Below are positions 11,055 to 60,889 of a stretch of 64,000 bases of DNA, piece after piece. Source of the DNA: Rugalucina vietnamica (lineage: Eukaryota; Mollusca; Bivalvia; Lucinida; Lucinidae); the NCBI GenBank assembly GCA_964017185.1, contig OZ024872.1, forward strand, positions 57,157,817-57,221,816, written 5' to 3'. How positions within the stretch are numbered: the stretch's first letter is position 1; each line of letters opens with the position of its first letter. The notes beneath the pieces were generated by a model. It ran no database searches. It was given only the letters and a program-made list of their open reading frames with translations, and was not told where the DNA came from. The translations under genes were made by a program, and so were the position numbers.

Positions 11055-11445
11055 TGATAGATATGGATTTTGTTTGCTTTTATTGCAGCAAGTTTTCTGC
11101 CTTGTGGAGGGCCTAAACAGTCTCATCCTCCATAAGACAGTATCTGTTCTCTTTGGAACTTTGGGATCAGCGAGGATATTCTGAGAAATCTGACACATAT
11201 GACCAATTTAGATTCAGTTGCTTAACAGTGTTTAAGTATCTGAGACCATTTGAATAATAAAAGTCTTGGTAAAGAAATTCTGTTGATATTTGCAACATAA
11301 CAGTTATTCCATTTTGTTCCATGTTGCCAGGTGAATAGGATCACTGATGTGTCTTTTTGTAGCCGAAATCAAGTTAACCTGTCTCATTAATATTTTCACT
11401 GCTCCCAAAGGATCTCAGTAATATTTTTATTTTCCAAAACAAATA
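11055..11445 (+). mobile_element. Diverged retrozyme-like monomer with degenerate hammerhead
   Basis: This is a dispersed relative of the 365-bp tandem unit at 47660-50682. Shared blocks in order: a pyrimidine run ending in GCAG, a TGCC(T/G)TGTGG(A/C)GG segment, TTTGGGATCAG, TTAACAGT, and the segment CACTGCTCCCAAAGGATCT matching CTGCTTCCAAAGGATCT in the array. A hammerhead-like stretch lies between (GGATCACTGATG... CCGAAA at 11338-11368), but the conserved CTGATGA has become CTGATGT and the helices no longer pair well. The copy is slightly longer than one unit and begins and ends in the same block, as expected for insertion of a circularly permuted or multimeric RNA copy. Confidence 0.6.
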
Positions 11446-15809: not shown

Positions 15810-15947
15810 TATATTTTCATCAGTTTTCATCTATTAAATTATATCTGAAACTTTAAGACCAGTAAGAAAATTTGGAGCAATAATACGCTTAGTTAAATCT
15901 GATTAGTCAATATAGTCCATCATCTGTCTTTAATGTTTCAACTATCT

Positions 15948-16113
<166 letters not shown>

Positions 16114-16336
16114 GTTTGCATATTCTCCGTTTACTCGATGCAGTAGCTAACAATTTATTTATCTACCACAACTCTTCGATACCGTATTGAAGGTCATTAG
16201 TTGACCGTCACTCGTATCTCGTTGTATAAGCGATTCTTACGTTTCTATCCATGGACTTGTATTAGACATGGACCTGAGATGTGGGTTTCGGTTATACCTT
16301 TTTTCTTTCATTCGAAAGATTTTGCATTACGATTAA

Positions 16337-17782: not shown

Positions 17783-18412
17783 AGCTATTCATTTTAGTTG
17801 GTTGGGGCCGGAGCTTCTTGTCTGTTGCTTGGCCCGCCGGGGTCCAACTTGTGTTTTTCTTTTGCTCCGGAGTTAGTAGGTTATTCGGCGCCCAGGGATC
17901 TCCATCGTCGGGCAGCTTACTCAATCTGTGAGTCCTGGTTTTTGATTCATCAGGATGTTTATCATGATTTATTTGTTTGTTCTTGATGATTGATTGACTA
18001 GTTAGAGATTCACCACGAGGACCGAAGAACTAACTAAATGTTGTGAACCACTGCAGAAGCTGAGGGTGAGGTTAGGTACCTGTAAAACCGGTTTAAGCCC
18101 GCCAGTAACTTTGTGTTACTGATCGTTCCAAGTCGATACTTCTGTAGTGGTTCTTTTTGTTTTATGTCTTGGTGTTTAAAATTTTTTGTGCTGTTGGCGC
18201 CTTATGTATGTTTTCATATTTTTAGTTAAGTTAAGGTAACTGAGTGGCCACCTATTGGGAAAATAGCTGCTCATTCGGCTTACGATATGTTTCATGGTAT
18301 AAGTACCTGATTGTTAGTTTGGTTTTTTCCCACCTCGGTTTTTGGAGTGGGAATCTTTTTCTGATTGCGCCTTTTCCTGATCTTTGCCTACTTGTGCCTT
18401 TTTGTTATACAG
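17783..18412 (+). mobile_element. 3' region of the Penelope-like element
   Basis: Non-coding tail following the reverse transcriptase. It is recognised because the copy at 30145-30897 contains both the end of the coding region and this tail. Landmarks: GGTACCTGTAAAACCGG, GTTGGCGCCTTATGTATG, CTATTGGGAAAATAGCTGCT, a small hairpin (CCCACctcggtttttggaGTGGG), and the terminus CTACTTGT(A/G)CCTTTTT. At least eight other fragments in the window share this terminus: 1800-2236, 20358-20575, 24058-24250, 29801-29899, 30145-30897, 31353-31389, 43875-45815 (interrupted) and 50976-51263. A 22-bp scrap lies at 35815-35836. Confidence 0.8.
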
Positions 18413-19074
18413 CTTATCACGTTAAAGAATGGTGCTCTTCTGGTCGCCAATGGCAGCTGCTCTAATGAATTATGTATGTATCATCTGTGAAGTATGCAGA
18501 GTATTATGATGTGCGACATACGTTTACTTAACTGGCAAAATTATATGCACTGCTTTAATGATGAATGGTATTTACATGTTACACTGATATTGAGTGAGTG
18601 CTTATTTGGAACATGTGTGCTGAACGAACACGGTTGGCTTATTCCTTTGCCAAACTTGAAACAAAAATCATTTTGATATAAACCTTTATTTCTATTTGTT
18701 TGTTTGTTTGAATTGATGGTTTACGTACCAGTCAACAGCATTCGTCATACCTTGGTTAACCAGTTATCAGATGGCAGCCAATCTATTACTTTAGGCCCCA
18801 GTGGGCGGAAGCCTATAATTCTACCCGACAACACTTGATGTTGAGATAGTGTTTATTCATTGAACATGTATGCTGAAGGAGTACGTGTGTGTTCTCTCTT
18901 TGCCAAATTAAAAACAAAATGTAATTTCGACATAGGCCAGGGTTTTTAGTCAAGAATATTACAATTACGTAAGCAATGGCTTGGTGTACTAGACTGCATA
19001 ATACATGTGTGTGCGGGATTTGTTTTCTTTTCAACTTTCATTTTCACCAAAGTCATTAATGACTTATTTTGCAG
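18413..19074. repeat. Intergenic or intron with a local duplication
   Basis: About 18570-18680 and 18828-18937 are diverged copies of each other (shared GAACATGT(G/A)TGCTGAA, CTTTGCCAAA and AACAAAA blocks). The polypyrimidine tract and acceptor for the IgGFc exon lie at 19062-19074. No upstream exon of the host gene was recognised. Confidence 0.5.
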
Positions 19075-20284
19075 CAACTGTCGGAAGAGAATTTCTGTTT
19101 GGGCTCATTGGCGATTATCGCGCCGACAATGTAGCCATAAACATTGCTTCAGAAACTCCAGGACGAATATACGTCAATGCACCCGCCGTTGGAATAAACA
19201 GGCACTATCTCATTAATTCGGCAACAAAGGAGATCATCTTAACGTCGCAAATAATACAGACGTCAAATACAACGGTGGAGAACAAGGCGGTGTATATAAT
19301 ATCAGACACGGACATTTCTGTTAATGTTGTTGTGTCTGGAGATCATAGTTACGGTGGATTTCTAGTATTTCCATTACAACAAACATTAAGGAATGTAAGT
19401 TTCCTTGTTGCGTCCTTTCCTGATGTGATCAGCAGTTCATATCCATCGGAAATTCAATTGATTGCATCACGAAACTCAATTGCCAGATGACTTAACTGGA
19501 ATATATATTCAAAATAACTCAATGCACTTAACCTTAGACGAGCACCAAGCATATCAGTTACAAAGTGTCTATGACCTTACTGGAACTCGTATTAAGAGTT
19601 CTGCTCCGATATCAGTCATAACAGGAAAAAAGTTAGCTCACATCGCTAGTGTGATATTCAGTGGATACATCATTGATCAAATGCCACCTGTTGACTTTCT
19701 TGGAACACAATTTATTGTACCACCCTTAGAAACACGAATTGGCTACTTCATTAAAATCATAGCACCCGAAAATCACATTTCTGTTAAGCTTCATAACAGA
19801 ACAGGGACGTATTCATTTATGATATATAGAGGGTTTGTTCAAACTATACTCATGAATAACAGTGAACCGGTTTTTATATCCAGCAATCGGCCTGTAATGG
19901 TTGCTCAGTACGGGATTGCCAGCAAAGGCGGGTATATGATGATGATAGTGCCCAGTATTTCAAACTATATGGATAGGTACAATTTCCTTATTCCATCGCT
20001 AATATCACCCTTCTCAAACTTTCTCTGTGTCATTTCACTAACGACAAACGTTTCTGACATACTTGTGGACTCACAACCACTTTCATCAATATCTGTAAAA
20101 ACATCATACATCAGGACAGTAGCTGGCAACTTCACCATTTCCGTCGTGAAGCTGTTACCCGGGAGGCATACTGTCGCTAGTAAAACTGGAACCACAACAT
20201 TTGGCGCACTTCTGTATGGTTTCCATAGCTATCATGGATATACAGGTGGAGGATATGGATTCCCTCTAGGAATGCGGGCACAAG
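19075..20284 (+). pseudogene. IgGFc-binding domain exon, copy 1 (frameshifted)
   Basis: This exon encodes an IgGFc-binding-protein N-terminal-type domain, found in extracellular mucus and adhesion proteins. It begins after the acceptor TTTTGCAG in phase 1 (EFLFGLIGDYRADN near the start) and ends in phase 1 at CACAAG|GTAATT, after GYGFPLGMR. It aligns along its whole length to the intact exon at 53752-54981, including IYVNA-AVGIN, IIQTSNTTVENKAV, GTRIKSSAP, YIIDQMPPV, RPVMVAQY and VVKLLPGR. Relative to that copy, 17 bases are missing near 19478, shifting the frame; both halves remain open on either side. It could be a recent pseudogene, an allele-specific lesion or an assembly error. Several N-glycosylation sites are conserved. 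It is followed by the linker and LU exons in matching phase. Confidence 0.88.
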
Positions 20285-20357
20285 GTAATTGTTGCAAAAA
20301 TATTTAAAGGAATATTAGCAGCAAACCAAAGGTTCAAATAAATAAATTGATGGATTA

Positions 20358-21059: not shown

Positions 21060-22290
21060 TTTTTATAACAAATTTTATTGCTTATTTATTGCTTTTTTGC
21101 ATATTCATGAATTTTCATTAAAATATTAAAATGAATAAACAGAAACAATTAAAAATCAATTATCCCATAAGAACTAATTTCAGCCCTAAACTATCATTGT
21201 GGCTCATTGTTATTGTACCAATAGTACTATTTGACAAATTTGTTGATGCTTTGGGCCTAAATAAAAATTCTCATTTGCATTTTCATGAATATTAATGAAA
21301 ATGATGAAAATCAAGATTAAAGAAAGGGAAAATCTATTACCAGTAGTTTTGAAGTGTTTGGGATGGGTTATCTTTAGGACGTACCTTCCACCCTTAGAAC
21401 AAATGCTCATGGGTGCCAGTTTGGTCAGAGGATCACTTTAATGCCCATTTGTGTCACATAAAATCACAGAGTGTTCACCCACACCCATAATAAACAGAGG
21501 AAGTAATGTGGTATCCCTATATTACCACATGTATCTTGGCTACTGATAGACATAGAGAGCAGAAATAGGTATCAAATGATTGTTTTGACAATGTTCTTTA
21601 ACATTGTAATAAGATATAAAAAGCGAACTGACTTCCTGGTGTTTGAATATCAATGAGAACTTTCTATATTAGGAAAAATCACATAAAAATGGAGTAATCA
21701 AAAGATCTAGAGAGCTTTAAATGGTATCAAATGATTGTTATGACAATGTTCTATAACCATGTAATAAGATATATAACAAAAGCTGGATAACTTTATGCTC
21801 AAATATTAAAGAGATCTTCCGATTTGTAGAAAAATAACAGATAAATGAAGAGGGTATACCAACAACATTGCTGATATCTCAGCAACCAAAAATTCTAGAG
21901 ATCTATATCAAATTATTGTTATGCTAATGTTCGTTAATGATGTGGTAAAATACAGACATAATTTGACTTTCTATGTCTTCAAATATTGATGAGAACTTTC
22001 AGGATAAGAGATAAATCACAGAACAATGGAGGGGTATATCTGCAGAAACATTTATTGCTCAGCAACCAAAAGCCATAGAGAGCTGAAATCGGTAACAAAT
22101 AATTGCTTTGACAACAACAAAATATGATACATAAATAATAAGACATTCGTGCTGTTCGAGTAGTGATGAAAACTTAAAATATTAGAGAAACATCACAGAA
22201 AATAAATAGAGGGGGTATACCTACAGAAAGGTTTATATCTCACCAACCAAAAGCCATAGAAAATTATTTTCCCATACTGATGTTTTCACT
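21060..22290 (+). repeat. Long dispersed AT-rich repeat, with degenerate internal repeats
   Basis: The part to about 21470 matches 46186-46690 (+) and, inverted, 52010-52510. Shared blocks: the TTGCATATTCATGAAT and GACAAATTTGTTGATG regions, GGATGGGTTAT, CTCATGGGTGCCAG, GGTCAGAGGATCAC. From 21535 onward a second degenerate repeat of about 155-186 bp recurs (CAAATGATTGTT-like blocks near 21572, 21728, 21911 and 22097). It is non-coding and lies within the intron between the IgGFc exon and the linker exon. I do not recognise the family. Confidence 0.65.
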
Positions 22291-24520: not shown

Positions 24521-26240
24521 ATGACCTTGACCTCAAGGTCACTCAGGTGGGTCATGATGGTACAACATAAAACTTCAGACCAATGCAAAGTATCAACTTG
24601 ATCAATTTACATGTTCAAGAGATATAGACTTATAAAAACATTAACCAAAACTTAAACACAAAACTTCCAAGTCCGACCTCAAGGTCATCCAGGTGAGTTG
24701 TGATGTACAGCATAAAACCTGAGACCAATATCTATCAACCTGCAAGTATCAACTTTATCCATCAACATGTTCAAGAGATTTAGACTTTAACCAAAAAAAT
24801 TAACAGAAAATTTCTAAGTCTGTGACCTTGACCTCAAGGTCACCCAGGGTAGGTCATGATGGTACTGCATAAAACTTCAGACCAATATCTACCAACATGC
24901 AAAGTATCAACTCGATCAATCAACATGGTCAAGAGATAGAGACTTAAAAAAACTTAAATCAAAAACTTAAACACAAAATTTCTAAGTCTGTGACCTTGAC
25001 CTCAAGGTCACCGAGAGTGGGTCATGATGGTACTGCGTAAAACTTCAGACCAATATCTAGCAGCATACAAAGTATCAACTCAATCCATCAATATGGTCAA
25101 GAGATATTGACTTACAAAAACTTTAACCAAAAACTTAAACACAAAATTTCTAAGTCCGTGACCTTGACCTCAAGGTCACCCAGGGTGGGTCATGATGGTA
25201 CTGCGTAAAACTTCAGACCAATATCTAGCACCATGCAAAGTATCAAAACAATCCATCAATATGGTCAAGAGATATTGACTTACAAAAACTTTAACCAAGA
25301 ACTTAAACACAAAATTTCTAAGTCCGTGACCTTGACCTCAAGGTCACCCAGGGTGGGTCATGATGGTACTGCGTAAAACTCCAGACCAATATCTAGCACC
25401 ATGCAAAGTATCAAAACAATCCATCAATATGGTCAAGAGATATTGACTTACAAAAACTTTAACCAAAAACTTAAACACAAAATTTCTAAGTCCGTGACCT
25501 TGACCTCAAGGTCACCCAGGGTGGGTCATGATGGTACTGCGTAAAACTTCAGACCAATATCTAGCACCATGCAAAGTATCAAAACAATCCATCAATATGG
25601 TCAAGAGATATTGACTTACAAAAACTTTAACCAAGAACTTAAACACAAAATTTCTAAGTCCGTGAACTTGACCTCAAGGTCACCCAGGGTGGGTCATGAT
25701 GGTACTGCGTAAAACTTCAGACCAATATCTAGCACCATGCAAAGTATCAAAACAATCCATCAATATGGTCAAGAGATATTGACTTACAAAAACTTTAACC
25801 AAAAACTTAAACACAAAATTTCTAAGTCCGTGACCTTGACCTCAATGTCACCCAGGGTGGGTCATGATGGTACTGTGTAAAACTTCAGACCAATATCTAG
25901 CAACATACAAAGTATCAAAACAATCCATCAATATGGTCAAGAGATATTGACTTACAAAAACTTTAACCAAAACAAAAACTTAAACACAAAATTTCTAAGT
26001 ACGTGACCTTGACCTCAAGGTCACCCAGGGTGGGTCATGGTGATACTGCGTAAAACTTCAGACCAATATCTATCAACATACAAAGTATCAAGTTGAACTT
26101 GATCCATCAACATGGTCAAGAGATATAGACTTCTAAAAAACTTTAACCGAAAGTGTGACGCGGACGTAAACGTAAACGTAAACGCGGACGACCGAGGTGA
26201 CTACAATAGCTCTATGCACTTCGTGCAGGCGAGCTAACAA
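24521..26240 (+). repeat. 168-bp satellite inside a SINE-like repeat
   Basis: About ten tandem units. The inner ones have a regular 168-bp period (unit marks at 24993, 25161, 25329, 25497, 25665, 25833), with shorter and more diverged units on the left and a slightly longer last one. Each unit carries the near-invariant palindrome GTGACCTTGA-CC-TCAAGGTCAC and a GGGTCATGATGGTACTGC block. The right edge (26156-26240: GACGCGGACG, GCGGACGACC, GACTACAATAGCTC) is the same kind of end as in the dispersed repeat at 5020-5765, so the array looks like an internal expansion of that family. It lies in the intron between the two LU domains. Confidence 0.9.
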
Positions 26241-30144: not shown

Positions 30145-30897
30145 AAAGGTACAAGTAGGCAAAGACCGGGAAAAGGTGCAATCAGAAAAAGATTCCCACT
30201 CCAAAAACCGAGGTGGGAAAAAAACCCAAACCAACAATCAGGTACTGATACCAAGACAACATTTCGTAAGCCGAATGAGCAGCTATTTTCCCAATAGGTG
30301 GCCACTCAGTTACCTTAACTTAACTAAAAATATGTAAACACACATAAGGCGCCAACAGCATAAAAATTTCAAACACCAAGACATAAAACAAAAAGAACCA
30401 CCACAGAAGTATCGACTTGGAACGATCAGTAACACACAGATACTGCCGGGCTTAAATCGATTTTACATGGCCATTACCTCACCCTCTTCAGTGGTTCATA
30501 ACATTTAGCTAGTTCTTCGGTCCTCGTGGTGAATCTCTAACTAGTCAATAAATCATCAAGAACAAACAAATAAATCAAGATAAACATCCTGATGAATCAA
30601 AAACTACAGATTCAGTAAGCTACCCGACGATGGACTTAGTAGCTCCGGAGCAAAAGAAAAACATCAGTTGGACCCCGATGGGCCAAGCAACAGACAGGAA
30701 ACTCCGGCCCCAACCAACTTAAATGAATAGCTTTAGGTCGGGGCCATCATAGAGTCTGACGTCCGACCCACCGGCGTGCAATTAAAGAAGGCAGCATAGT
30801 TATCAACCATGATTGGGTTAAAAACTAAGCATGCAGACTGTCACATAACATTTAAGTTATAACTTATACGTCTGTAACGTGTTATGATTTTTCTAAA
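30145..30897 (-). mobile_element. Penelope-like element, 3' end including end of coding region
   Basis: Reverse complement of the element at 16337-18412. It spans the whole tail and the last about 40 codons of the reverse transcriptase frame (homologous to 17630-17782), then stops abruptly near 30897. It proves that the separate tails and the reverse transcriptase belong to one element. Confidence 0.9.
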
Positions 30898-45815: not shown

Positions 45816-46185
45816 ACAAGTTTATTTGTAAAACCCTAACCCACATATAGTAGGGTTTCAAGGCCCAGATAGAGATGGGGTCACCACAAAAGAACAACAT
45901 TAAATCAAATATGCCAAAATGTTTGTCATACCCTGAAGTTTCTGAAATAACTACGCTGTGTCCAATTTAAGTGCGGGCCCAAGCCATCAGAAAATGGTAA
46001 TAGGTGGTTGGAAACTTGCAGAAATTCATTCATATCCTCTTGTCCTCTTTTTCATTCATATCCTCTTGCAGAGGATGCCACTGGAAGCTTGGGAACTGAT
46101 GTTTGGTCAATTTAAAGTCTTGCAGCAGTGTTGAAATTATGTTACACATGACAATATATAATGCGATCCTCGAAAATGAGGGTGT

Positions 46186-46690
46186 TCATACAAAACTGGT
46201 TATATCTCTACTGTAACTAATCCTACACCACTGAACTTTGTTTTATTTAAAAGCTTAAACATAGCCCGTACAGGCACTGAACAAAAAATAAGTTATCTAA
46301 TTTGCGTATTCATGAATTTTTAATAAAATCATTACAAATACTAGAAAAATCGATAACATTCATATATAAACATATTTCAGGCCCAAACTTTCATTGTGAC
46401 ATTCTGTTATTGAACCAGTAATATCATATGACAAATTTATTGATGTCATTGGCCTATATTAAAATTATCTCATTTGCATATTCATGAATATTCATTAACA
46501 TGTTGAAAATCGAGGAAAAACAAGGCAAAAGCCATTGCAAGGTTTTGGATGGGTTATACGATCCTTTTGCATCCCTGGGACCAACTCTCATGGCTGCCAG
46601 TGTGGTCAGATGGACCACCTTAATGCCATAAAATATTGTCATCAAGAATGAACACATTTGCATAATTTAAAATTGCATATATTCCTCATC
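46186..46690 (+). repeat. Dispersed repeat, left arm of an inverted pair
   Basis: Inverted counterpart of 52010-52510 and direct counterpart of about 21060-21470. Blocks in common: ACCAGTAATATCATATGACA, AAAATTATCTCATTTGCATA, GTTTTGGATGGGTTA, CATGGCTGCCAG, TTAATGCCATAAAATATTGT. It flanks the retrozyme array on the left. Further diverged parts of the same repeat continue to about 47000. Confidence 0.75.
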
Positions 46691-47074
46691 CAACTTTGGT
46701 GCCATTTTTAAGAATAGGGTATACTCACAAAATACTCATGTACCAACAACAGCATGCTCTAAAATACTATTATTGGTCTGACAATGATGCATGAACCTAG
46801 CAATTAAAATTTATACCTATAATTCAAATCATTGAATTTGCTAATTCATGAAAATTAATAAAAGCATTAGAAATCGGAGAAAAACTTGAAAAATATTAGA
46901 TAAACATGCAAAATCTCTTGTACCAGAGCTGTTAACGAAACGAGGATGCTGCTGAAAAAGAAACATCAATTGAATGTCATGGCAATGTACTAGTCTTATG
47001 TAAGAAAAATATGACTTTCAATTTCATTAATTTTAATGATAACCTGATCCTGATTAAAAGGAGTTAAAGTTGAA

Positions 47075-47425
47075 AATTAACTGGTAAACAAACAAAAGGA
47101 ATAAAAAGTAAAATTGAGATCCTTTAAGAGCAGTGAACATATAAATGAGCAAGGGGATAGGCCATACCGCGGTTTCGACTATTAAAGTCTCGTCAGTGAC
47201 CCTTAAGATTTGGCAACATGGAGCCAAAGAGAATAACTTAAATTTTGCAGCTCTCAACAGGGTAGTCGATACAAAGACTAGTATTATCTAATTGGGGCCA
47301 AATATATAAAACATTTTGGTTAGAAAATGAATCGTAACCGATAATAAATTTCTGATTTCTCAGAATATCCTCGCTGATCTCAAAGGACCAAACAGAAATA
47401 TAACCTGCACTATGGATGATGTACC
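47075..47425 (-). mobile_element. Single retrozyme-like monomer (minus strand)
   Basis: The reverse complement matches most of the 365-bp unit of the neighbouring array: GTACATCATCCATAGTGCAG, the TTTGAGATCAGCGAGGATAT block, the hammerhead, and the CTGCTCTTAAAGGATCTCAA block. It stops at the pyrimidine-rich TTTACCAG edge. Only the stretch of about 40 bp between that edge and CCCCGTACATC is missing. It is diverged from the array units but keeps the best-formed ribozyme. Confidence 0.75.
47159..47202 (-). ncRNA. Type I hammerhead ribozyme core
   Basis: On the minus strand: helix I strand GGGTCA, core CTGACGA, helix II GACT-TTAAT-AGTC (4 pairs, correct G-C closing pair), core GAAA, minimal helix III CCGCGG, then T-A at the cleavage site and helix I strand TGGCCT. 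Helix I pairs as A-U, C-G, U-G, G-C, G-C, G-U. All core nucleotides of the hammerhead consensus are present. Predicted cleavage is after the A of GGTA|TGG. The very short helix III is the form described for Penelope-linked and retrozyme ribozymes, which may act as dimers. Confidence 0.8.
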
Positions 47426-47736
47426 CTTTTTTCAACAATCAAAAACCCCAAGATACTGCAAATGGCATAAAATGGATGCTAAATCAATATTATGCCATCC
47501 AGTACAGCAATATATATGTCATTTGATTAACTAAAGCTTTCGGATTTTGAGGCAAATTAGAGCAAGGCGGTACACATAAAAAACACGTGTATTTTGGCTA
47601 CTGATAGACATTGAGTAATTGGTGTCAAATGATTGCTTGGATAATCTTCTATAACTACTTATTTGAGTCTTTGATTTAGACTGTCAATTCTAGAAATTGC
47701 AGCAAAATGTCTGGCTTTCGCTGCCAGTTTTATAAA

Positions 47737-47782
47737 GGGTCACTGATGAAGGTTCATTACCCGAAATTGTACGATATGGCCT
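47737..47782 (+). ncRNA. Hammerhead ribozyme, array unit 1
   Basis: GGGTCA-CTGATGA-helix II-GAAA-helix III-TA|TGGCCT. Helix II is AGGT/ACCC with an A-C mismatch next to the core. Unit 1 differs from later units in helix III (TTGTACGA) and in TGGCCT. Confidence 0.72.
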
Positions 47783-48101
47783 ATCTTCTAGCTTTGTATT
47801 TTTACTGCTTCCAAAGGATCTAACAATTATTTTTATTTGCTATTACTGCAGCTGGTGTTGTGCCGTGTGGCGGCCCTAAAAAGTCTCCCCGTACATCATC
47901 CATAGTGCAGATTGTATGTTTCCTTTGATCCTTTGGGATCAGTGAATATATATGAAGTATTTCAAATTTTTATATGTTAAGAATCATCTTCTTAACAGTA
48001 TTTTGATTATTTGGCCCCTTTGGGTATTTGAATCTTTGATTTAGACTGTGAATTCTAGAAATTGCAGCAAAATGTCTGGCTTTCGCTGCCAGTTTTATAA
48101 A

Positions 48102-48147
48102 GGGTCACTGATGAAGGTTCATTACCCGAAATTGTACAATATGGCCC
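48102..48147 (+). ncRNA. Hammerhead ribozyme, array unit 2
   Basis: Same core. Helix I GGGTCA/TGGCCC gives six pairs with one U-G. Helix III TTGTACAA is self-complementary. The A-C mismatch at the base of helix II is present. Confidence 0.72.
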
Positions 48148-48466
48148 ATCTTCTAGCTTTGTATTTTTACTGCTTCCAAAGGATCTAACAATTATTTTTA
48201 TTTGCTATTACTGCAGCTGGTGTTGTGCCCTGTGGCGGCCCTAAAAAGTCTCCCCGTACATCATCCATAGTGCAGATTATATTTTTCTTTTGATCCTTTG
48301 GGATCAGTGAATATATATGAAGTATTTCAAATTTTTATATGTTAAGAATCATCTTCTTAACAGTATTTTGATTATTTGGCCCCTTTGGGAATTTGAGTCT
48401 TTGATTTAGACTGTCAAATCTAGAAATTGCAGCAAAATGTCTGGCTTTCGCTGCCAGTTTTATAAA

Positions 48467-48512
48467 GGGTCACTGATGAAGGTTCATTACCCGAAATTGT
48501 ACAATATGGCCC
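48467..48512 (+). ncRNA. Hammerhead ribozyme, array unit 3
   Basis: Identical in the core to unit 2, offset by exactly 365 bp. Confidence 0.72.
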
Positions 48513-48831
48513 ATCTTCTAGCTTTGTATTTTTACTGCTTCCAAAGGATCTAACAATTATTTTTATTTGCTATTACTGCAGCTGGTGTTGTGCCGTGTGG
48601 CGGTCCTAAAAAGTCTCCCCGTACATCATCCATAGTGCAGATTATATTTTTCTTTTGATCCTTTGGGATCAGTGAATATATATGAAGTATTTCAAATTTT
48701 TATATGTTAAGAATCATCTTCTTAACAGTATTTTGATTATTTGGCCCCTTTGGGTATTTGAGTCTTTGATTTAGACTGTCAATTCTAGAAATTGCAGCAA
48801 AATGTCTGGCTTTCGCTGCCAGTTTTATAAA

Positions 48832-48877
48832 GGGTCACTGATGAAGGTTCATTACCCGAAATTGTACAATATGGCCC
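48832..48877 (+). ncRNA. Hammerhead ribozyme, array unit 4
   Basis: Identical in the core to unit 2. This is the unit whose distal part is interrupted by the TA-flanked element. Confidence 0.72.
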
Positions 48878-48987
48878 ATCTTCTAGCTTTGTATTTTTAC
48901 TGCTTCCAAAGGATCTAACAATTATTTTTATTTGCTATTACTGCAGCTGGTGTTGTGCCCTGTGGCGGCCCTAAAAGTCTCCCCGTA

Positions 48988-50031
48988 CACTGAAACAAAG
49001 TTATAAGAGGCCACCTCATATTTCGTCTTCTAGTTCAGAAAGTAAAATACAATCAATTAAAATTCATGATCATATGAATAAACCAATGTCTAACAGTGGC
49101 TCTGTGAGTTTCTGCATTCCAAAATGCGTGATACTTCTCACACAGACGAAGCATGTGTAAAGGTACCCTATTTCAAAAAGTCACACTTTATTAACATCAA
49201 ATTAAATGTCATATTATGACGTTGTGTTTTTACATTTTAATTTATTTGAAAGTGCTACTGACTGCCATGATGCAAGATAAAATTAAGTCAAAAGTGTTGC
49301 TGCAATAAGAATCTTCGTTTCTGTTTTGCACATGCAAGAAGACAACAACCTGAATAACAGGAATTCAGCTTTTGTATGCAATTTGCATACCAACTTTGTT
49401 CTTCTCCAGTTGCGTTATTATCAGCAGCACGGCATTGAAATTTTCAGCGATTATTTAGGTCAAATACTAGACTCTGATATACTTTGAAAATTAAAAAAAT
49501 CGTCCACAAATTTTGTTATTTTGTTCGTTAAAAATTGGCATTGAAACCGGAAGTGTGCGGCAGCCTTGACATGTTGGTCCTCGAAAATGGTCAAAAACAG
49601 TTTAGTCGAATTATATCTCTCATTTCCAGGCCTCATCAAGTGAATTTAACAGGGGTCAACATGTTTAAGAGGCACATTTATGATTTTTTTAAAAAATCTC
49701 AAAATTGGCGATTTTTAAAAATGCATAAAAATTTTACCAGTAGAGAAAATTCGAATGTTTGATGTTTTTCCAAGCCGTAACGACCCCTTTGATGACACCC
49801 GTTCCTAATTTCAATAAATGGTGTGCTGTATCCAATTTTTTATTTAAAAACATTGATTTTTGCATTTTTACTCCAAAAACGCCTCTAGTAAAAGAAAATT
49901 ATTTCTTAACACTTTGGAACTTTACTTACTTGAAAGACACGTCTTTTGGCAAAAAATTGTGCAATCTTGAACTTGGCTTAGAAACAAAAAATGAGTTTGA
50001 AAAGTGGCCTCTTTATAACTTTGTTTCAGTG
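48988..50031. mobile_element. 1.04-kb TA-flanked transposon inserted in array unit 4
   Basis: Left end CACTGAAACAAAGTTATAAG and the inverse at the right end (arms of about 30 bp, AGAGGCCAC included). TA lies on both sides (48986-48987 and 50032-50033). The neighbouring array units give the empty site CCCCGTACATCATCC, so the borders are certain to within the TA/GTAC ambiguity. The interior frames at 49535-49762 and 49759-50085 show no transposase. Non-autonomous, Tc1/mariner-like. Confidence 0.9.
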
Positions 50032-50241
50032 TACATCATCCATAGTGCAGATTATATTTTTCTTTTGATCCTTTGGGATCAGTGAATATATATGAAGTAT
50101 TTCAAATTTTTATATGTTAAGAATCATCTTCTTAACAGTATTTTGATCATTTGGCCCCTTTGGGAATTTGAGTCTTTGATTTAGACTGTCAATTCTAGAA
50201 ATTGCAGCAAAATGTCTGGCTTTCGCTGCCAGTTTTATAAA

Positions 50242-50287
50242 GGGTCACTGATGAAGGTTCATTACCCGAAATTGTACAATATGGCCC
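50242..50287 (+). ncRNA. Hammerhead ribozyme, array unit 5
   Basis: Identical in the core to unit 2. The next unit (near 50590) retains only the GAAA half. Confidence 0.72.
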
Positions 50288-50975
50288 ATCTTCTAGCTTT
50301 TGATTTTTTCTGCTTCCAAAGGATCTAACAATTATTTTTATTTGCTATTACTGCAGCTGGTGTTGTGCCCTGTGGCGGCCCTAAAAAGTCTCCCCGTACA
50401 TCATCCATAGTGCAGATTATATTTTTCTTTTGATCCTTTGGGATCAGTGAATATATATGAAGTATTTCAAATTTTTATATGTTAAGAATCATCTTCTTAA
50501 CAGTATTTTGATTATTTGGCCCCTTTGGGAATTTGAGTCTTTGATTTAGACTGTCAATTCTAGAAATTGCAGCAAAATGTCTGGCTTTAGCTGCCAGTTC
50601 ATTACCCGAAATTGTACAATATGGCCCATCTTCTAGCTTTGTATTTTTACTGCTTCCAAAGGATCTAACAATTATTTTTATTAATCTGATATATAAATCA
50701 TCAGCTATTTCTGTAGTATGGTAATTATTGAGATCTTTAAAATCAGCGAAAAATGAAGGGGTATACCAACAAAATGGCTTACATCTTGAAGAGAGCTAAA
50801 ATTGGCACCAGTAAATAGCTAAGTCAATGTTTTATGTCCTTGTATTCAGATATACATGACGTGCTTGCAGGCTGCATGGTAAAAGTGCATTGTCCTAGCA
50901 TTCTATTGGTACCATTTTTAATGTTCCAAGGAAATTGGCAGCTGAGATCTAGGTAAAGGATTTTTTTATAATTTT

Positions 50976-51263: not shown

Positions 51264-52009
51264 TTAGTGAATTCCTTCGTTTTATCTCTTTTACTCTTAG
51301 TTATAAAGATTTCATTAACCCCCATACAGCAAAAGTCACTGATGATTTATATACCAGATATAATGGTTATAGCACATTGTCCTAGCAATCGATAAATACC
51401 AATTACAGCCCTCTATGTCTATCAGTAGACAAGCATTTTTCTATGTTTACCGCCCTATTTTTGTTGTAATTTGCCTCGAAATCCGAATTGTTTTGTTAAT
51501 ATTCATAAAGCAAAAAACCAAATGACTTATACATTGTTGTACACAATGACACAATATTGCTTAAGCATCTATTTGATGCCATTTTCAGCATGTTAGGACT
51601 TTTATCCACCGAGGCACAAGTCATTATGTAGATTTACCGGTTTAATTTATTTACCTTTTCATTCCTATTTGTAGAGTTGTCATTAAAATTCATGAAAATA
51701 AAAATCAGATAATTCTTTTATCAGATTTTAGAGACATAGTACATTACCATAGCATTAATTTGATACTTTTTTCAGCATCCTAGGCTTTAGCGGCCCTGGT
51801 AAAAGAGATTTTATATGTATACCCCCTATTTGTCCATGATTTTTCTCTGATTTCTTAGGTTTTCTATTAATTTTCATGAACAAGCAAATTCAATCATTTA
51901 GTATGTATTAATGTTAAGGCTGCTAAGTCCATGCACCACTATCAGATAAATTATAGTATTCTAGAGCATTGTTGGCATATGTGTATTTTGGGGAGTTCAC
52001 CTTATTCAT

Positions 52010-53702: not shown

Positions 53703-53751
53703 TTAATACAAATATGAATATAATCGTCTATGATCTTATTGTGTTTTGCAG

Positions 53752-54981
53752 CAAACGTAGGAAAGGAATTCCTGTTTGGACTGATTGACGCTGAAGACCC
53801 CGTTAGTGTTATCATAAATATTGCTTCTTCAACTACAGGACGCATATACGTCAATGCGTCTGCCGTAGGAATCAACAAACACTATCTCATTAATTCAGGA
53901 GCACTGGAGATCGCCTTGACGCCTAAAATAATACAGACGTCAAACACAACTGTAGAAAACAAGGCAGTGCACATTGTATCAGACATTGACATCTCTGTAA
54001 ACGTTTTGATAACTAGTACTGTCACGAATTTTTACGGTGGATTTTTAGCATTTCCTTTACATCAGTTATTGGACTTAAGTTTCGTTGTTGCTTCATTTCC
54101 TGGAAGCGGCAGTTATGCTCCAACCGAAATTCTGATGGTCGCATCACAAGATTCAACCAAAATATCAGTAGGATTTCCAAATAACTTTACGGGAACGTTT
54201 GTTCAAAATAACTCTATGCACGTCACCTTAGACATGCATCAAACATATCAGCTACAAAGCGGGTATGATCTTTCTGGAACGCGTATTAAGAGTTCTGCCC
54301 CCGTTTCAATAATCGCAGGCTCTTTGTCGGCTCTCATCGGTAGTAAAATCTACCCTGCGTACATCATTGATCAAATGCCACCAGTTGCTTTCCTTGGTAC
54401 AAGATTTATCGTACCATCCCTAGAAACACGGACAGGCTACTTTATTAAGATCTTAGCCTCCGAAAATCAGATAACTGTCAAACTTCAGAACAGTACTGGA
54501 ACGTATCAATTTATGGTTTATAATGGTTATGTTCAAAACATTCTCATGAACAGCGGTGAACCAGTTTTCATATCTAGCAGCCGCCCTGTAATGGTTGCTC
54601 AGTATAGTTTAAGTTATGCCACAGACAGGAAAGGTGGGGGGCTAATGATGATAGTACCCAGCATATTAAATTATATGGATAGGTATGATTTCCTTATATC
54701 ATCAAATCAATCAGTGTTCACCAATTTTCTGTGTGTGATTTCACTGACGACAGATGTTTCTGATATAAGTGTGGACTCACAGCCCCTTTCATCATCAGCC
54801 AGCAACACTTCCTACATCGGGACGGAAGTTGGTAATTTCACAATTTCCGTCGTAAAACTGTTGCCTGGGAGATATTATGTTGCTAGTAAAACCAGAAGCA
54901 CTACATTCGGAGCTGTTTTATATGGTTTCTATAGTGCCGCGGGATATGGATTCCCTCTAGGAATGCGGACAACATCAGCTG
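53752..54981 (+). CDS. IgGFc-binding domain exon, copy 2 (intact)
   Basis: A 1230-base exon of 410 codons, phase 1 at both ends: acceptor GTGTTTTGCAG|CAAACG and donor TCAGCTG|GTAACT. Without splicing the frame would read through to a stop at 55007. It encodes an IgGFc-binding-protein N-terminal-type domain with GKEFLFGLI near its start, GTRIKSSAPVSIIAG in the middle, YIIDQMPPVAFLGTRFIVP, RPVMVAQYS and MMIVPSILNYMDRYDF. These blocks correspond to the alternating beta-strand and QMPP elements of the family. Many N-glycosylation sites (NTT, NFT, NNS, NST, NQS, NTS) indicate an extracellular protein. Exon symmetry means it can be duplicated or skipped without changing the frame. The exons that follow were not found before the window end. 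Confidence 0.88.
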
Positions 54982-55672
54982 GTAACTGCTGTACATTTTT
55001 AGCATAAGCGCATAGGCAAAACACAACATCAAATAATCCAATCAATCATAGTCCTTCCGTACTTTTTCGATTTCGATAGTCTTTCGGAGTCTCTTGATGC
55101 TTTGTCGAATGAATGATTTAACCAATCGAAACTTAAACCAAACAATTACGTACATGATCAAATAATATGTGTAGACTATCTTACATAAATATAATGAGTT
55201 CCACGGCTAACGCAACTTTATTTTTTCATCTCTTCTTTTAAATTGGTCAATAATCTAAAAACTCTATGCCCTAGCATCATTTAAATTTCTTTAACATCTT
55301 TACATGTTATCTATTTATTATGAAATTTCTGCCAACATATATATATACAAATACATATATGCGACAAGGATTGGGCTTAGGCAAAGCCTATCATTGCCCT
55401 CTCCCGTCGGTATTACAATTTACATTCATTAAGAAAATCAATTCTACTATGCATAATAATATCTGTCATATACATTTTATATATACAATCAAAAGTACAT
55501 GTTAACTATGTGAACAGTAGGGATAAGGTGCGAATTCATCTGGAACAGATTTTCAAGATCAGTCATTGCAAAGTTGGTACACACTTACATGTATTCACCG
55601 TGCTGGTAAGACTTAGTTAGGTTCGACAGTAATGCTAAAGCTCTGCTCCACAGGAGTTCGATCGTTATCCAT

Positions 55673-56510: not shown

Positions 56511-56557
<47 letters not shown>

Positions 56558-56757: not shown

Positions 56758-59700
56758 TTATGTGAGTCGGTTAGTCTGTTTAATGAATGTAATAACCTGG
56801 TTTTGAAGATCACAATTTTCTTCATATGACAAGTCGGTGCTTCCATAAAGAAGATCATGCACACATACAGTTATTTTACTATATATATTTGGCTTTGTCA
56901 TCAGTGAATTAATGAGATTTATTCTTTCATTTGAATATTTAGGGCAGTTGAAGATAAAGTGGTCTATGGTTTCTGCACAGTTACAGTGGGTACAATTTGG
57001 TGAGTCTATTAAGTGGTCATCATGCAAGTCTTGATTGAGTTGGCTTTTACCATTTCTAAGCTGACATAGAATAATTTTATCCTTTCTTGTACCGGGTGAA
57101 TAATAGTTGGAAGGTGTTGGGGCTTGCTTTTTTAATTCTTGTTTAAATGAGTGTAAGGAGGTACAGTTAGCCAAATTAGGATTAAGGTTATTCCATAAAT
57201 TAATTGTTGCTGGGAAATAAGATTTTTGAAATGAAGTTGAGTTTGGTTTAGGGTATCTTAAGTTATTATTTCTTAAAGAATAAGGTACAACATGATCATT
57301 ATAGCTGTCTAATATATTGTTTATATATGTTGGAGTTTCATAATTTAGGATTTTAAAAAAGTAAGTCAATTTACTGTCCTGTCTACGTTTTGATAGTGAG
57401 GTCCATCCAAGTTCATCATACAGGATATCGTGAGATGTACCACGGCGTAATCCTGTTATGATTCGGGCAGCGTCAAGTTGAATTGATTCCAGAAGTTCTG
57501 CCTCGTCTTTGTCACAGTTATCCCAGACAATGCTGCTGTACTCCAGTACAGGTCGAATATAAGAGGTATAAAAACGAGTTAAAGATTTCCTGTCCAGATC
57601 ATACTTCAACATTCTTAAGATATTTAACCTTTTTGATGCTTTTTCATAGATGCGATTAATGTGATCCCCCCAAGTTGCATCATATGATAATGTCAGACCC
57701 AGATGTGTATGCTGGGTTTCATCTTGAAGTTCAATATTATTAAATTTGACTTTAGGGCATTCCCTAATCCGTTTGCGAGTAAACGTCATAGATTTTGTTT
57801 TTGTGGGGTTTAGTATGATACACCATGACTCAGCAAATTGGGCAATTTTTTTCAAATCTTCTTCAAGTAGTTTGATTGAATTGTTGTTTTCGAAAACAGT
57901 GAATAATGATGTATCGTCAGCGAAGAGTCGAATGTTACAATTAATATCTTTCACAATGTCATTGATATAAATAAGAAATAAGTAGGGACCCAGCACTGAG
58001 CCTTGTGGAACTCCAGCTAATGTGTTTTCCCAATTAGATTTAAAGCCCTCAGTTATCACACGCTGTTTTCTGTTTGACAAGTAGCTTTTGAACCAAGATA
58101 ATAAGTTGTTAGTAATGCCATATTTTTTAAGCTTAAATAGGAGACCGTCATGCCAAACCTTGTCAAATGCTTTACTTATGTCGCAAAATATGAATTTGAT
58201 TTCTTTCTGTTTGTCTAAATTTTCTATTATTTTATGATATATTTCCAGGAGTTGATTGACTGTGGAATCTTTTGGACGAAAGCCACTTTGAAAATTTGTG
58301 ATTAGTTGATTGGTTTCCAGGTAATTATACAGATATTTAAAAATTATTTTTTCAAGCATTTTACCAATACAACTAGTTATGGAAATAGGTCTATAATTTG
58401 TTGGATCTGAGGAGTCACCTTTGCCTTTGAAAATAGCTGAAATGTTGGCCATTTTCCAGTCTGAGGGTACCTGTCCTAGTGAAAGTGATTTATTGAAAAG
58501 TAGCATTAAGGGTTTTGCCAATGAGTTGCCTAGTGCTTTTATAAGTTTTGGAGAGATTTCATCCGGACCACCAGGTTTGGAAGTTTTTAATGCATGCAGT
58601 TGGTCTTTTACATCTTTTTCAGTAACAGTTATACTTTCAAGAGCATATTGGGGGGTTGGTTCTTCCTCGGGTAGGGGCGGAGGATTATCTACCTTTGAAA
58701 TGTTAGCAAAATGTTTGTTTAGAGTTTGGGCTTTATCGAAAGGGTGTATATCTACTGTATTATTATTATTTCTTAAGGGTGGTGGGGGATTTCTTTTATT
58801 CTTAAGACTTGAAATTTCATTAGCAATTTTATACCATTGTTTAGGTGGGGTTTTTGAATCTGAAAGTGTATCTTTTAATTTTTGTAAATAGTTTGCTTTA
58901 GCTTCTCGAATTTATGTGATTACCTCATTACGTTTATCTTTATAGTTATTTAAATAGTTAACTGATTTTTTAAGTTTAGCTTTTTTGAAGAGTCTATCTC
59001 TTTGTCTAATTTGCTTCCTTATGTTATTATTCATCCATGGCTTGTCAGTGGGGCGCTTTGTATAGTTTACACTGGGAATAAATTGATTAGCAGTGTCAAT
59101 TATAAATTTAGCAAAAATTTCATTTATTTCATCTATATTATTACAGTTATTGATATATGACCAATCAGTGCTATTCACTTTGTTTTCTATAGCTTCATTA
59201 TCTGCTTCTTCATATTTCCAGAATTTTGTTTTGTATGTTTTTTCTTTGTAGGTTTTGAATGTGATGTCTGCAGTAATGGTGCAATGGTCACTACAAAAGG
59301 GGGCCAGTATATCAGTGTTTTCAATTATTGAGGTATGGTTTGTTAGGACGAGATCAAGGCATGTTTGGGTAGTATCTGTAATTCTAGTTGGCTCAGTAAA
59401 CACATTTTCAATATCGAATTTACATATTATTCTTTCTAGTTTGGTTAAATTGTTTTGAATCATTAAGTCATGGTTGAAGTCTCCCATTATTATCATGTCA
59501 AGATTTTGATCTGATGCTGTTTCAAGGCAGCTTTCAAATGATTCCCAGTAGTCCACAGTGCTTCCAGGTGGCCTGTAAAATAAGCCCATCAAAAATTGTT
59601 TGTTTAGAGTGCAGACTTGGATCCATATATTTTCAATGTATTGATTTTCAATATCAGGGCGCCGTTTAAAGTGGATGTTGTTTTTAATATAAACAAGCAG

Positions 59701-60057
59701 TCCACCACCATTGTTATACTGCCTGTCTCTGCGAATTGGATCATGAAAGCCATCAATTTTAAGTTTTGCTGTTTCAACAAGATTATTCAATTTGGTCTCT
59801 GAAACACAGATTATATCATATTCAGATAGCTCAACACTAAGTAAATCAACCTTGTTTCTTAATCCATTTATGTTCAGATGGGCAATTTTCATGCTAGATA
59901 GGTTATTTAGTTGAGGGTTATTATGTGTAACCTCTGCTGCAGTTTGAGAAGCATTTATTGAAGAGGTTGAGACATTTGACTGACTAATATTTTTACGTTT
60001 TCTTATGATCACATGGTCACCATTGAGTTTTGTATTATCGCGCCTCGTCGATGTCAT
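56758..60057 (-). pseudogene. LINE ORF2 (endonuclease-reverse transcriptase), one stop
   Basis: One reading frame of 1100 codons, interrupted only by a TAA at 58912-58914. N-terminal AP-endonuclease: LNINGLRNKVDLLS, the catalytic region SETKL, MGDFNHD, LDLVLTN and the closing SDH. Reverse transcriptase: YRPISITSCIGKMLEK, FCDISKAFDKVWHDGL, AGVPQGSVLGPYLFLIYIND and the catalytic FADDTSLF. C-terminal zinc-knuckle-like segment CTHCNCAETIDHFIFNCPKY. Domain order and motifs fit the jockey/CR1/I-like group. The catalytic residues I can see are intact, so the stop is probably the main defect; it may be a recent mutation or a sequencing error. The start used is the ATG at 60057. A poly-A tail lies at 56511-56554. 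No matching target duplication was recognised. Confidence 0.9.
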
Positions 60058-60889
60058 TGAATGTTAAATAGGTAATGGATAAGTTTTGAATGGTGACCAG
60101 ATAGTATTTCAGAAGTTCTATTGATACTTAGCATTTTGGCATGAGAATGAGTCAGTTGGAAAGGAGCACAAGTATTATCTGTCAGTACAATAAAGATAAA
60201 TAGAAAGATATACATAACTACAAGATACATGTACAAGCAAAAGAACAAAAGAAAACAAAGTCAAAAAATGATACTAAGGAAGTGCAAGTAATCCTTGCAT
60301 GTAATAATAAGTGGCACAAAATCACAATCAGATTCAGTAGCATGTTTTTATAAAATAAAGTCAAGGAGGAGATGAAACTTTAAGATTTTAGACTCGTTAT
60401 TTATTTTTTCAGGCTCCGATCTTAGACATCAGACATCACAAGACCTGTGAATCAACAAAAAGAGTGGTGGAGAGCAGTGTTCGGTCGTGTTTCTCTTTTT
60501 GATGGTGCATTATGGGTGGATATTGCCTTGTGATATGGCTATGATTACTTTTACATCATATATTTCAAATACATAGATGTGTAAATATTCGGAAATGTGT
60601 TTCTTATACATGGATTATTCAGAAATGTGTGTCATACATGGATTATATGGAGAATTGTCATATTTGGATAAAATAGGAGATTCAATGTGGATCAAAAGAA
60701 CACAGTATAAAATGATTCTACTTTTTTAAAATTAATGAGTAGAATACTTGTGCTTTCTTATTTCTTACATTCTGCTAGTTTAACTTTTCAACAAAAGGTC
60801 AAGTCATGAATATAAATGCTATTTCAATAATAGATTCGATACTATTTCAATGACTTATACTATTTCAGTAATATTATATAACAAGCAGA
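60058..60889. other. LINE upstream region, no clear coding
   Basis: AT-rich. It probably includes the sequence just 5' of ORF2. No ORF1 is visible directly upstream. Confidence 0.5.

Follow-up and report, generated by a model that had tools for sequence, protein, structure and literature searches.

The tandem array at positions 47660-50682 of the window, a stretch of 64,000 nucleotides of the Rugalucina vietnamica genome, is supported as belonging to the metazoan non-LTR retrozymes, a known class in which it represents a new family. Across this genome, 46 of 58 distinct retrozyme loci share a fixed 3′ end, located 61-65 nt beyond the ribozyme cut site. The features concerned are:

47660-50682, plus strand: retrozyme array of six units
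47660-48989, plus strand: units 1-3 and the front part of unit 4, followed by an inserted TIR element and the rest of unit 4
47737-47782, plus strand: hammerhead of unit 1, core at 47743, predicted cut between 47776 and 47777
48102-48147, plus strand: hammerhead of unit 2, core at 48108, predicted cut 48141/48142
48467-48512, plus strand: hammerhead of unit 3, core at 48473, predicted cut 48506/48507
48832-48877, plus strand: hammerhead of unit 4, core at 48838, predicted cut 48871/48872
48988-50031, unstranded: element of 1,044 bp inside unit 4; its ends are inverted, CACTGAAACAAAGTTATAA.., and it is flanked by TA on either side
50166-50530, plus strand: unit 5
50242-50287, plus strand: hammerhead of unit 5, core at 50248, predicted cut 50281/50282
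50531-50682, plus strand: unit 6, partial (152 nt), hammerhead core deleted
50640-50682, plus strand: 3′ tail (..AAAGGATCTAACAATTATTTTTATT), stopping at the family's common 3′ end
47094-47424, minus strand: older single retrozyme copy of a second family, same 3′ end as the array
47159-47202, minus strand: canonical hammerhead of this copy, with G-C at 10.1-11.1
11068-11432, plus strand: single diverged copy with a decayed hammerhead core (CTGATGT), same 3′ end as the array
51289-51500, minus strand: empty-site paralogue of the array insertion point, the other arm of an inverted repeat

The original prediction described six units in exact 365-bp register. This register was observed for four contiguous units, each with a type I hammerhead ribozyme (HHR), but unit 4 is one base shorter (alignment column 219) and unit 6 is partial. 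Cores 4 and 5 lie 1,410 apart instead of 365 because the 1,044-bp inverted-repeat element sits in unit 4. Two unit types alternate along the array (alignment columns 1 and 206), and divergence between units amounts to 0-3.8% over 130 nt. One unit measured had a GC content of 35.3%. The unit length of 365 is not divisible by 3, and 47660-48989 contains no open frame reaching 100 aa. Comparison with the empty-site paralogue showed that the array cleanly interrupts an old repeat arm, and around the array we observed inverted arms only and no direct-repeat pair. All three copies of the window, namely the array and the two older single copies at 47094-47424 and 11068-11432, which the original prediction did not mention for this locus, have their 3′ end in common.

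We then examined the hammerheads themselves. The consensus core, from C3 to H17, was found in five of the six array units. The motif CTGATGA-N(3-20)-CGAAA gave five exact matches against 0.17 expected by chance, a number reached by none of 100 shuffles. Helix I (GGGTCA/TGGCCC) is fully paired, unit 1 carrying TGGCCT, and helix III is formed by ATTG-TA-CAAT with one G.T wobble in unit 1. The predicted cut falls within ATA|TGGCCC, at an A|U bond of the RNA. Exact pattern matches and pairing thus agree with the five units proposed to carry CTGATGA, GAAA and matching helix I strands GGGTCA/TGGCCY. Also as proposed, all five array hammerheads have an A.C mismatch at the helix II base (10.1-11.1), where the strict consensus has a pair. 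Taken in isolation, the hammerhead fold lies above the energy minimum (-3.2 vs -8.0 kcal/mol; for F2, -6.9 vs -10.8).

No hammerhead match was obtained for the array units in Rfam, either at the gathering threshold or at E<=10; the snoR11 rows appearing at E<=10 scored 21-23 bits against 80 needed, and this identity was taken as chance. The array gave no match to Hammerhead_1 (RF00163) and the minus-strand copy reached 18.3 bits for a cut-off of 34, so that the first outcome listed in the original prediction as speaking against it, no covariance-model hit above threshold, is to the letter what was found. A genome-wide RF00163 search returned 0 hits; this search was insensitive, with 73 of 120,866 candidates scored and 0 of 14 control genomes positive. 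A pattern scan of viral contigs for hammerheads gave 0 matches. We give the Rfam miss little weight in view of this insensitivity and of the covariation that helices II and III show between loci. Among 21 hammerheads of this genome, the two helices covary as the fold demands: 95.5% of cells were paired and no more than 43.6% after sliding, changes had occurred on both sides in 6 of 14 pairs, and the covariation score was reached by 0 of 500 shuffles. Two other measures were weaker: 12 of 500 shuffles had at least as many two-sided changes, and the further pair types (9) lay below the shuffled mean of 11.0. The compensatory changes in helices II and III across families therefore indicate that the fold has been under selection.

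A loose hammerhead pattern found 8,719 exact matches in the window's own genome (1.09 Gb) and its reversed version 0, and the hammerheads of this genome fall into three families. The A10.1·C11.1 state was present in 1,935 of 2,102 matches to the motif of the array family. The caution about this mismatch is thus factually correct, but the state is family-wide and no local damage to the array. Natural copies of the same family carry G-C or A-U at this position (L054, L049). The figure of 1,935, together with the missing Rfam match, could mean that the A.C hammerhead is dead and that the first family consists of SINE-like elements no longer using their ribozyme, and a survey, in its accessible part, rejected candidates with mispairs at that position (PMC3088659). 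The most numerous exact motif has, however, an otherwise intact core. Moreover, an axolotl retrozyme with U-U at this position is active in cleavage, at 22% within one hour for the monomer and better for the dimer (PMC7229834, in part), a parallel limited by U-U being reported as the best tolerated mispair at 10.1-11.1 (PMC3088659). We therefore regard a dead first-family ribozyme as unlikely. About two thousand identical motifs with a mispaired helix II base offer a natural test of mismatch tolerance.

Copies are dispersed and measure 0.3 to 5.5 units. Elsewhere in the genome, neighbouring cores are mostly 363-385 apart and at times 417-418. Among 45 bounded loci, 25 were shorter than one unit, 17 contained one to two and 3 contained two or more. 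The 58 distinct loci with measured 3′ ends correspond to two sets in which the common end was found in 21/27 and 23/27 (8 loci being common to both), plus a third with 10/12; the expected end was absent from the measurement in 12 of the 58. The 5′ ends were scattered, 27 loci occupying 8 of 10 bins. Such a common 3′ end with scattered 5′ ends is as given by reverse transcription from one internal start. Target-site duplications were mostly absent: 5 of 34 loci exceeded the 95% level of mismatched pairs, with one clear duplication of 27 bp (L019), while L007 sits in a repeated target.

These ends also bear on whether the array is ordinary satellite DNA that unequal exchange has spread, its hammerheads simply being carried along. 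Tandem head-to-tail units of such low divergence would fit, and the alternating pair suggests local duplication of a dimer. The shared 3′ end and the dispersal of partial, mostly short copies nevertheless already disfavour the satellite reading, and the clean interruption of the old repeat arm also speaks against it; we consider it very improbable.

The assignment to retrozymes was supported by the type I hammerhead, AT-rich 365-bp units, copies from fractions to multimers, thousands of dispersed matches and a Penelope-like element (PLE) bearing a hammerhead in the same genome. Retrozymes are defined by units of 150-450 bp arranged as dimers to large multimers, and the 365-bp unit lies in this range, with more than half of the bounded loci, as given above, under one unit. 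Similarly, GC content is below the 45-50% limit, and the copies are non-coding, dispersed and multi-copy with a type I hammerhead per unit, albeit one below the Rfam cut-off. Retrozymes of this class are further characterised by the lack of LTR, PBS and PPT, and a target-site duplication, when present, should exceed 4 bp. The closest description is that of the Mytilus galloprovincialis retrozyme (Cervera and de la Pena 2020, PMC7229834, accessible part), which likewise has type I hammerheads, low GC, thousands of copies and coexisting PLEs. Compared by description, its units measure about 350-390 bp and it has two related ribozyme families versus three here; unlike in the mussel, 10.1-11.1 is A.C and not a pair in one large family of our genome. 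Axolotl HHR_Amex2, as far as described in the same source, shares the mismatch at the helix II base as well as a short, tetraloop-capped helix III, but has U-U instead of A.C, and host and sequence differ. Schistosome SMalpha / W elements, by partial description (PMC8490949), likewise contain type I hammerheads and are SINE-like or satellite-like repeats of a different host.

A model of propagation, which we consider probable as a whole, would start from the array as the insertion of a non-autonomous, non-coding retrozyme. Arrays would be transcribed into multi-unit RNA, which type I hammerheads would cut, singly or as dimers via the palindromic helix III. The RNA, circularised or still multimeric, could then serve as template for reverse transcription that starts from a single, fixed position within the element, 61-65 nt downstream of the cut, and stops at varied places, as the ends suggest. 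Such a start with varied stops would yield mostly one 3′ end, scattered 5′ ends and lengths of 0.3 to 5.5 units. A PLE-type enzyme would be the likeliest helper, because a start point within the element and beyond the ribozyme cut is similar to the way in which PLEs begin.

The nature of the template deserves particular attention. The alternation of unit types speaks against a single monomeric circle having been copied, so that such a circle is not the simplest template to assume here. Circular folding gave z values of -2.93 and -3.05 for the sense and antisense strands of the unit and -1.62 for the minus-strand copy, and is no evidence for a functional circle. An internal start on uncleaved multimeric transcripts, needing neither cleavage nor circles, would let arrays copy the unit order of their parent, as the alternation in the window suggests. 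It would also accommodate the amplification of the A.C form, even though a hammerhead of this kind should be weak. In the available part of a study of the Anolis PLE (PAc), mutating the hammerhead left insertion in vitro at the wild-type level, and the authors suggested that the substrate is mainly unprocessed RNA (PMC11167929). On the other hand, compensatory changes keep helices II and III across families, and circles are an abundant form in mussel, coral and axolotl (PMC7229834, in part). A purely linear template is thus plausible, though somewhat less likely than not.

Regarding the helper of the model outlined above, the original prediction placed PLEs in the window and linked metazoan retrozymes to them. 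The window does contain a PLE-like ORF, which we take to be Naiad-like, but the hammerhead-carrying PLE was found elsewhere in the genome. The array itself has no ORF with RT and GIY-YIG, PLEs being separate elements. Similarly to the retrozymes, the hammerhead-bearing PLE ends beyond its cut: among 20 short stretches the end lay 48 nt past the cut in 5, 70-80 nt in 14 and 28 nt in 1. This recalls the Anolis PLE, for which an internal reverse-transcription start is described and lies 85-92 nt past the cut, as computed from that paper's +26 and 111-118 (PMC11167929, in part); in both, a hammerhead is followed by a fixed internal start or 3′ end. Retrozymes differ from PLEs in having no ORF, an unrelated tail (417/500 and 394/500 shuffles aligned as well with the PLE tail) and a location outside TA repeats, (TA)5 being found in the flanks of 0/50 retrozyme loci versus TA repeats around 20/20 PLE stretches.

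Pfam and PDB searches gave no name for the Naiad-like ORF of the window, and its structure model, with a mean pLDDT of 38.5, was set aside; one relative, P0039, had a sub-threshold RVT_1 match. Retrozyme ends abutted Naiad pieces at 8 of 107 junctions versus 1.32 expected, and still at 6 (P about 0.002, same expectation) after removal of L054, which lies inside a Naiad and was counted twice. Because of this excess, Naiad-type elements are a candidate helper. It is a weak lead only, because other references could also give an excess in the same test: 8 vs 2.13 for other window repeats (4 once L030 and L040, both located within repeats, are left out) and, with five PLE loci as reference, 5 vs 0.32 for L081, 1 vs 0.70 for L064 and 0 for the three others. 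For L081, 4 of the 5 junctions came from L030 and L040, in the repeat beside that PLE. Naiad pieces occurred within 17 of 34 3-kb loci, a share close to that found for stretches taken at random from the window (254/609).

A more general proposal, tentative and on present evidence rather unlikely, would be that a Penelope-type enzyme copies animal retrozymes from a fixed internal site just past the hammerhead, the shared 3′ end being its landing place. Arrays would arise from running round a circular or dimeric template, Naiad-type elements would be one candidate helper, and the A10.1·C11.1 hammerhead would work in this clade. A review, in its accessible part, describes metazoan retrozyme repeats as having no conserved motif for deducing the helper (PMC7761336). 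The common 3′ end past the cut provides a testable landing site for the enzyme that moves animal retrozymes, and dozens of loci with a set cut-to-end distance offer a route for searching the helper.

The window contains a tandem array of retrozyme units with an insert in it, at the following positions.

47660-50682, + strand: retrozyme tandem array
47743, 48108, 48473, 48838 and 50248, + strand: starts of the hammerhead (HHR) cores, the first four at exact 365-bp spacing
48988-50031: insert in unit 4, a 1,044-bp element with matching inverted ends and TA at either side

The original prediction of six units in exact 365-bp register thus applies to the first four cores but not throughout, as unit 4 carries the insert and unit 6 is reduced to 152 nt that lack the HHR core. 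That five units carry CTGATGA, a hairpin and GAAA was borne out: CTGATGA-N(3-20)-CGAAA gave 5 exact matches, against 0.17 expected in the whole window. A custom scan for the core and three helices recovered the five array HHRs and one on the minus strand (47159-47202), and under its rules no further HHR in the 64 kb. The insert, without a second copy in the window at E<=1e-5, is perhaps a non-autonomous Tc1/mariner-type element. Pairwise likeness among the three retrozyme copies of the window (array, minus copy and a diverged copy) was 61-72%. Two unit types alternate in the array: units 1 and 3 carry G206 and have T1 in the unit after them, whereas units 2, 4 and 5 carry C206 and have A1 after them.

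In the array HHR, helix I reads GGGUCA/UGGCCC, the core CUGAUGA and GAAA, and helix III AUUG-UA-CAAU (or A-U, U-A, U-A with the palindrome GUAC as cap), with a predicted cut after AUA. Helix II reads A.C, G-C, G-C, U-A, in agreement with the A-C mismatch previously noticed at its base. The covariance-model check proposed for this HHR was negative: Rfam gave no HHR match for the array at E<=10, whether 4.5 kb or a 96-nt piece was searched, and the minus-copy HHR reached 18.3 bits where the cut-off is 34. Moreover, the HHR fold was not the energy minimum of the array HHR taken alone. Against this we set kept pairing and covariation in an alignment of 21 hammerheads of the genome (2 of the window plus 19 chosen for variety among fetched loci). 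Paired cells were kept at 95.5%, versus at most 43.6% when partners were slid. Both-side changes occurred at 6 of 14 pairs, a value reached by 12 of 500 shuffles, and none of 500 reached the covariation score; further pair types showed no rise (9 versus 11.0 in shuffles). The pair at 10.1-11.1, the base of helix II, was present in 15 hammerheads and absent in 6. Since 17 of the 21 rows had helix I set by the loose HHR search pattern, and two (L049 and L054) had helices II and III largely set by the F1 motif search, the covariation test draws chiefly on helices II and III in the remaining rows.

We then considered the genome (1,089,854,562 bases; 17 contigs of 35-102 Mb, and C18-C20 of 15-86 kb). 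The loose HHR pattern gave 4,219 + 4,500 exact matches and its reversed version none. Among the matches listed, three families with variants were distinguished by eye from helix II: F1, AGGTTCATTACCC, as in the array; F2, GACTTTAATAGTC, as in the minus copy; and F3, GGCTTAAGTAGCC. A 35-base F1 motif allowing A/G at 10.1 and C/T at 11.1 matched 2,102 times, 1,935 of them with A.C, so that the mismatch is the amplified state. Among the F1 motif matches listed, a restored 10.1-11.1 pair was found in two neighbouring copies at three sites, in the same state at 3/3, which is what the filling of an array from a single template would give; a fourth restored copy has no such neighbour.

8417394/8417769: two restored neighbouring copies
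46306602/46306975: two restored neighbouring copies
10239176/10239549: two restored neighbouring copies

The array is a genuine retrozyme of the kind known from metazoans, with several families and a high copy number. Its new features, as far as seen, are its host, an A.C hammerhead that dominates one family and a common internal 3′ end; the literature searched, whose coverage leaves out many journals, contained no description of metazoan retrozymes with a fixed 3′ end.

Ends were mapped for 46 distinct loci from both pattern searches (14 of the 60 fetched were repeats) and 12 short stretches. In 46 of these 58 loci the 3′ end fell at one shared place in the unit, following ..AAAGGATCT..ATTTTTATT: 21/27 in the first set, at +90 to +107 from the core, 23/27 in the second, within 16 nt (8 loci overlap the first set), and 10/12 short stretches. 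All three window copies share it. The exceptions were the following.

L001, L013: 3′ ends at +59 and +65, with an internal deletion, judged by eye, before terminal TATTTTTATT or TATTTTTTATT
L005: aligner ran on; BLAST end at 98-102
L014, L023: aligner took the neighbouring copy; tail visible by eye
L021: rearranged past the core
L043, L051, L057, L130: sequence continues into the next unit
L032, L121: alignment extends 23-25 nt beyond the common end

By eye, the tail of L047 runs straight into an inverted copy of the post-tail region, in a head-on arrangement. The 5′ ends were scattered, 27 loci occupying 8 of 10 bins of the unit. With the 3′ boundary set at +95 from the last core rather than measured, as also in the flank analyses, 45 copies bounded on both sides spanned 112-891 nt (25 below one unit, 17 of one to two, 3 of two or more); the window array has ~5.5 units. 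The distance from cut site to 3′ end was 61 nt in F1 and 65 nt in one F2 tail.

Scattered 5′ ends combined with a shared 3′ end are the mark of reverse transcription from one RNA position, which here would lie beyond the ribozyme cut. The mapped copies were chosen by patterns spanning the cut or reaching up to it. As copies run through the cut site, the template would have been uncut there or re-joined, as a circle or multimer. The published retrozyme circle model (PMC7229834) fits the common-end pattern, but the alternating unit types of this array require that the circle was dimeric, that the template was a linear multimer, or that local duplication followed.

Penelope-like elements (PLEs) start internally as well; in the one from Anolis the start lies 111-118 nt inside the ORF and the HHR cut at +26 (PMC11167929). 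In the window's genome, a PLE hammerhead, TCCTGCTGANGAGCNGTAAAGTGAAAGCGCTACAG, has 108 exact matches and lies 1.25-1.37 kb downstream, on the same strand, of at least five GIY-YIG places, and thus belongs with a PLE family.

C1:61155892: GIY-YIG place with downstream TCCTGCTGANGAGCNGTAAAGTGAAAGCGCTACAG
C1:61157628: likewise
C5:20711634: likewise
C11:7817137: likewise
C15:425918: likewise

These PLE insertions end past the cut by 48 nt (5/20), 70-80 nt (14/20) or, once, 28 nt, and TA repeats follow all 20 examined. These ends resemble the optional 30-40-bp tail described in PMC11167929. The retrozyme, whose end likewise lies past the HHR cut, thus works in a PLE-like way in this respect. Retrozyme and TCCTGCTGANGAGCNGTAAAGTGAAAGCGCTACAG PLE tails have no common sequence, and 0/50 retrozyme loci showed (TA)5 in the 30 nt next to their ends, leaving this PLE unsupported as helper.

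A weak lead to a helper is an excess of Naiad pieces at retrozyme ends. The related window features are these.

16337-17782: RT-like ORF with SECIS-like 3′ end (Rfam SECIS_1)
17757-17824, + strand: SECIS_1 above cut-off, 39.0 bits, 3′ end of the Naiad-like ORF
30691-30758, − strand: SECIS_1 above cut-off, 36.1 bits, 3′ end of a truncated copy

Pfam did not recognise the ORF, which resembles a Naiad-type PLE. Naiad selenoproteins have reportedly been published from clams, and the SECIS at the ORF ends fit such selenoprotein-coding Naiads; the literature searched yielded no paper on them. Of 107 retrozyme junctions, 8 had a Naiad piece no more than 20 nt away, versus 1.32 expected, or 6 without L054, located inside a Naiad copy; other repeats were also in excess, at least about half from insertions inside the repeat. 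At L012 and L015, 52-53-nt Naiad 3′-end stubs, cut at nearly the same Naiad position, stand 16 and 7 nt upstream of separate retrozyme insertions. At L131 and L138, antisense Naiad pieces stopping at nearly one position (1762 and 1756) adjoin the 5′ ends of two separate retrozymes. Within 15942-16337 a (CTAT)n microsatellite precedes the Naiad-like ORF, with ~220 nt between it and the ORF start. Two of its relatives, 77-82% identical, are filed under MAGs of bacterial 'Candidatus Thiodiazotropha', symbionts of lucinid clams, and are probably host contamination. Taken together with the SECIS-bearing Naiad and the genes for IgGFc-binding proteins, they suggest a bivalve host, one other than Mytilus to judge from its chromosome number.

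An old inverted repeat (46160-47655 versus 52554-51366, pieces 70-78% alike), with a related copy at 21096-22108, has one of its arms interrupted by the array. The other arm, rc(51289-51500), is without array and aligns straight through the junction. Inspection by eye shows TATT at either end of the array and CATTATATCTG in the empty arm, which would allow a target duplication of at most ~4 bp. Such duplications were rarely visible: 5 of 34 loci exceeded the 95% level of mismatched flank pairs, the clear case being one of 27 bp at L019. The target of L007 is itself repeated. Retrozymes of different length occupy nearly one place of the same dispersed repeat at L030 and L040, possibly a target preference; this repeat also adjoins the PLEs L081 and L086.

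Elsewhere in the window, 24522-26152 is a tandem repeat of 168/336 bp, with the palindrome TGACCTTGACCTCAAGGTCA in its unit. A LINE-type element in two frames, with endonuclease and RVT_1, occupies 56758-60063 (−), and beyond its 3′ end the + strand has a 44-base T run (56511-56554). Finally, an IgGFc_binding domain occurs in two related reading frames/genes at 19002-20307 and 53724-55007 (+).
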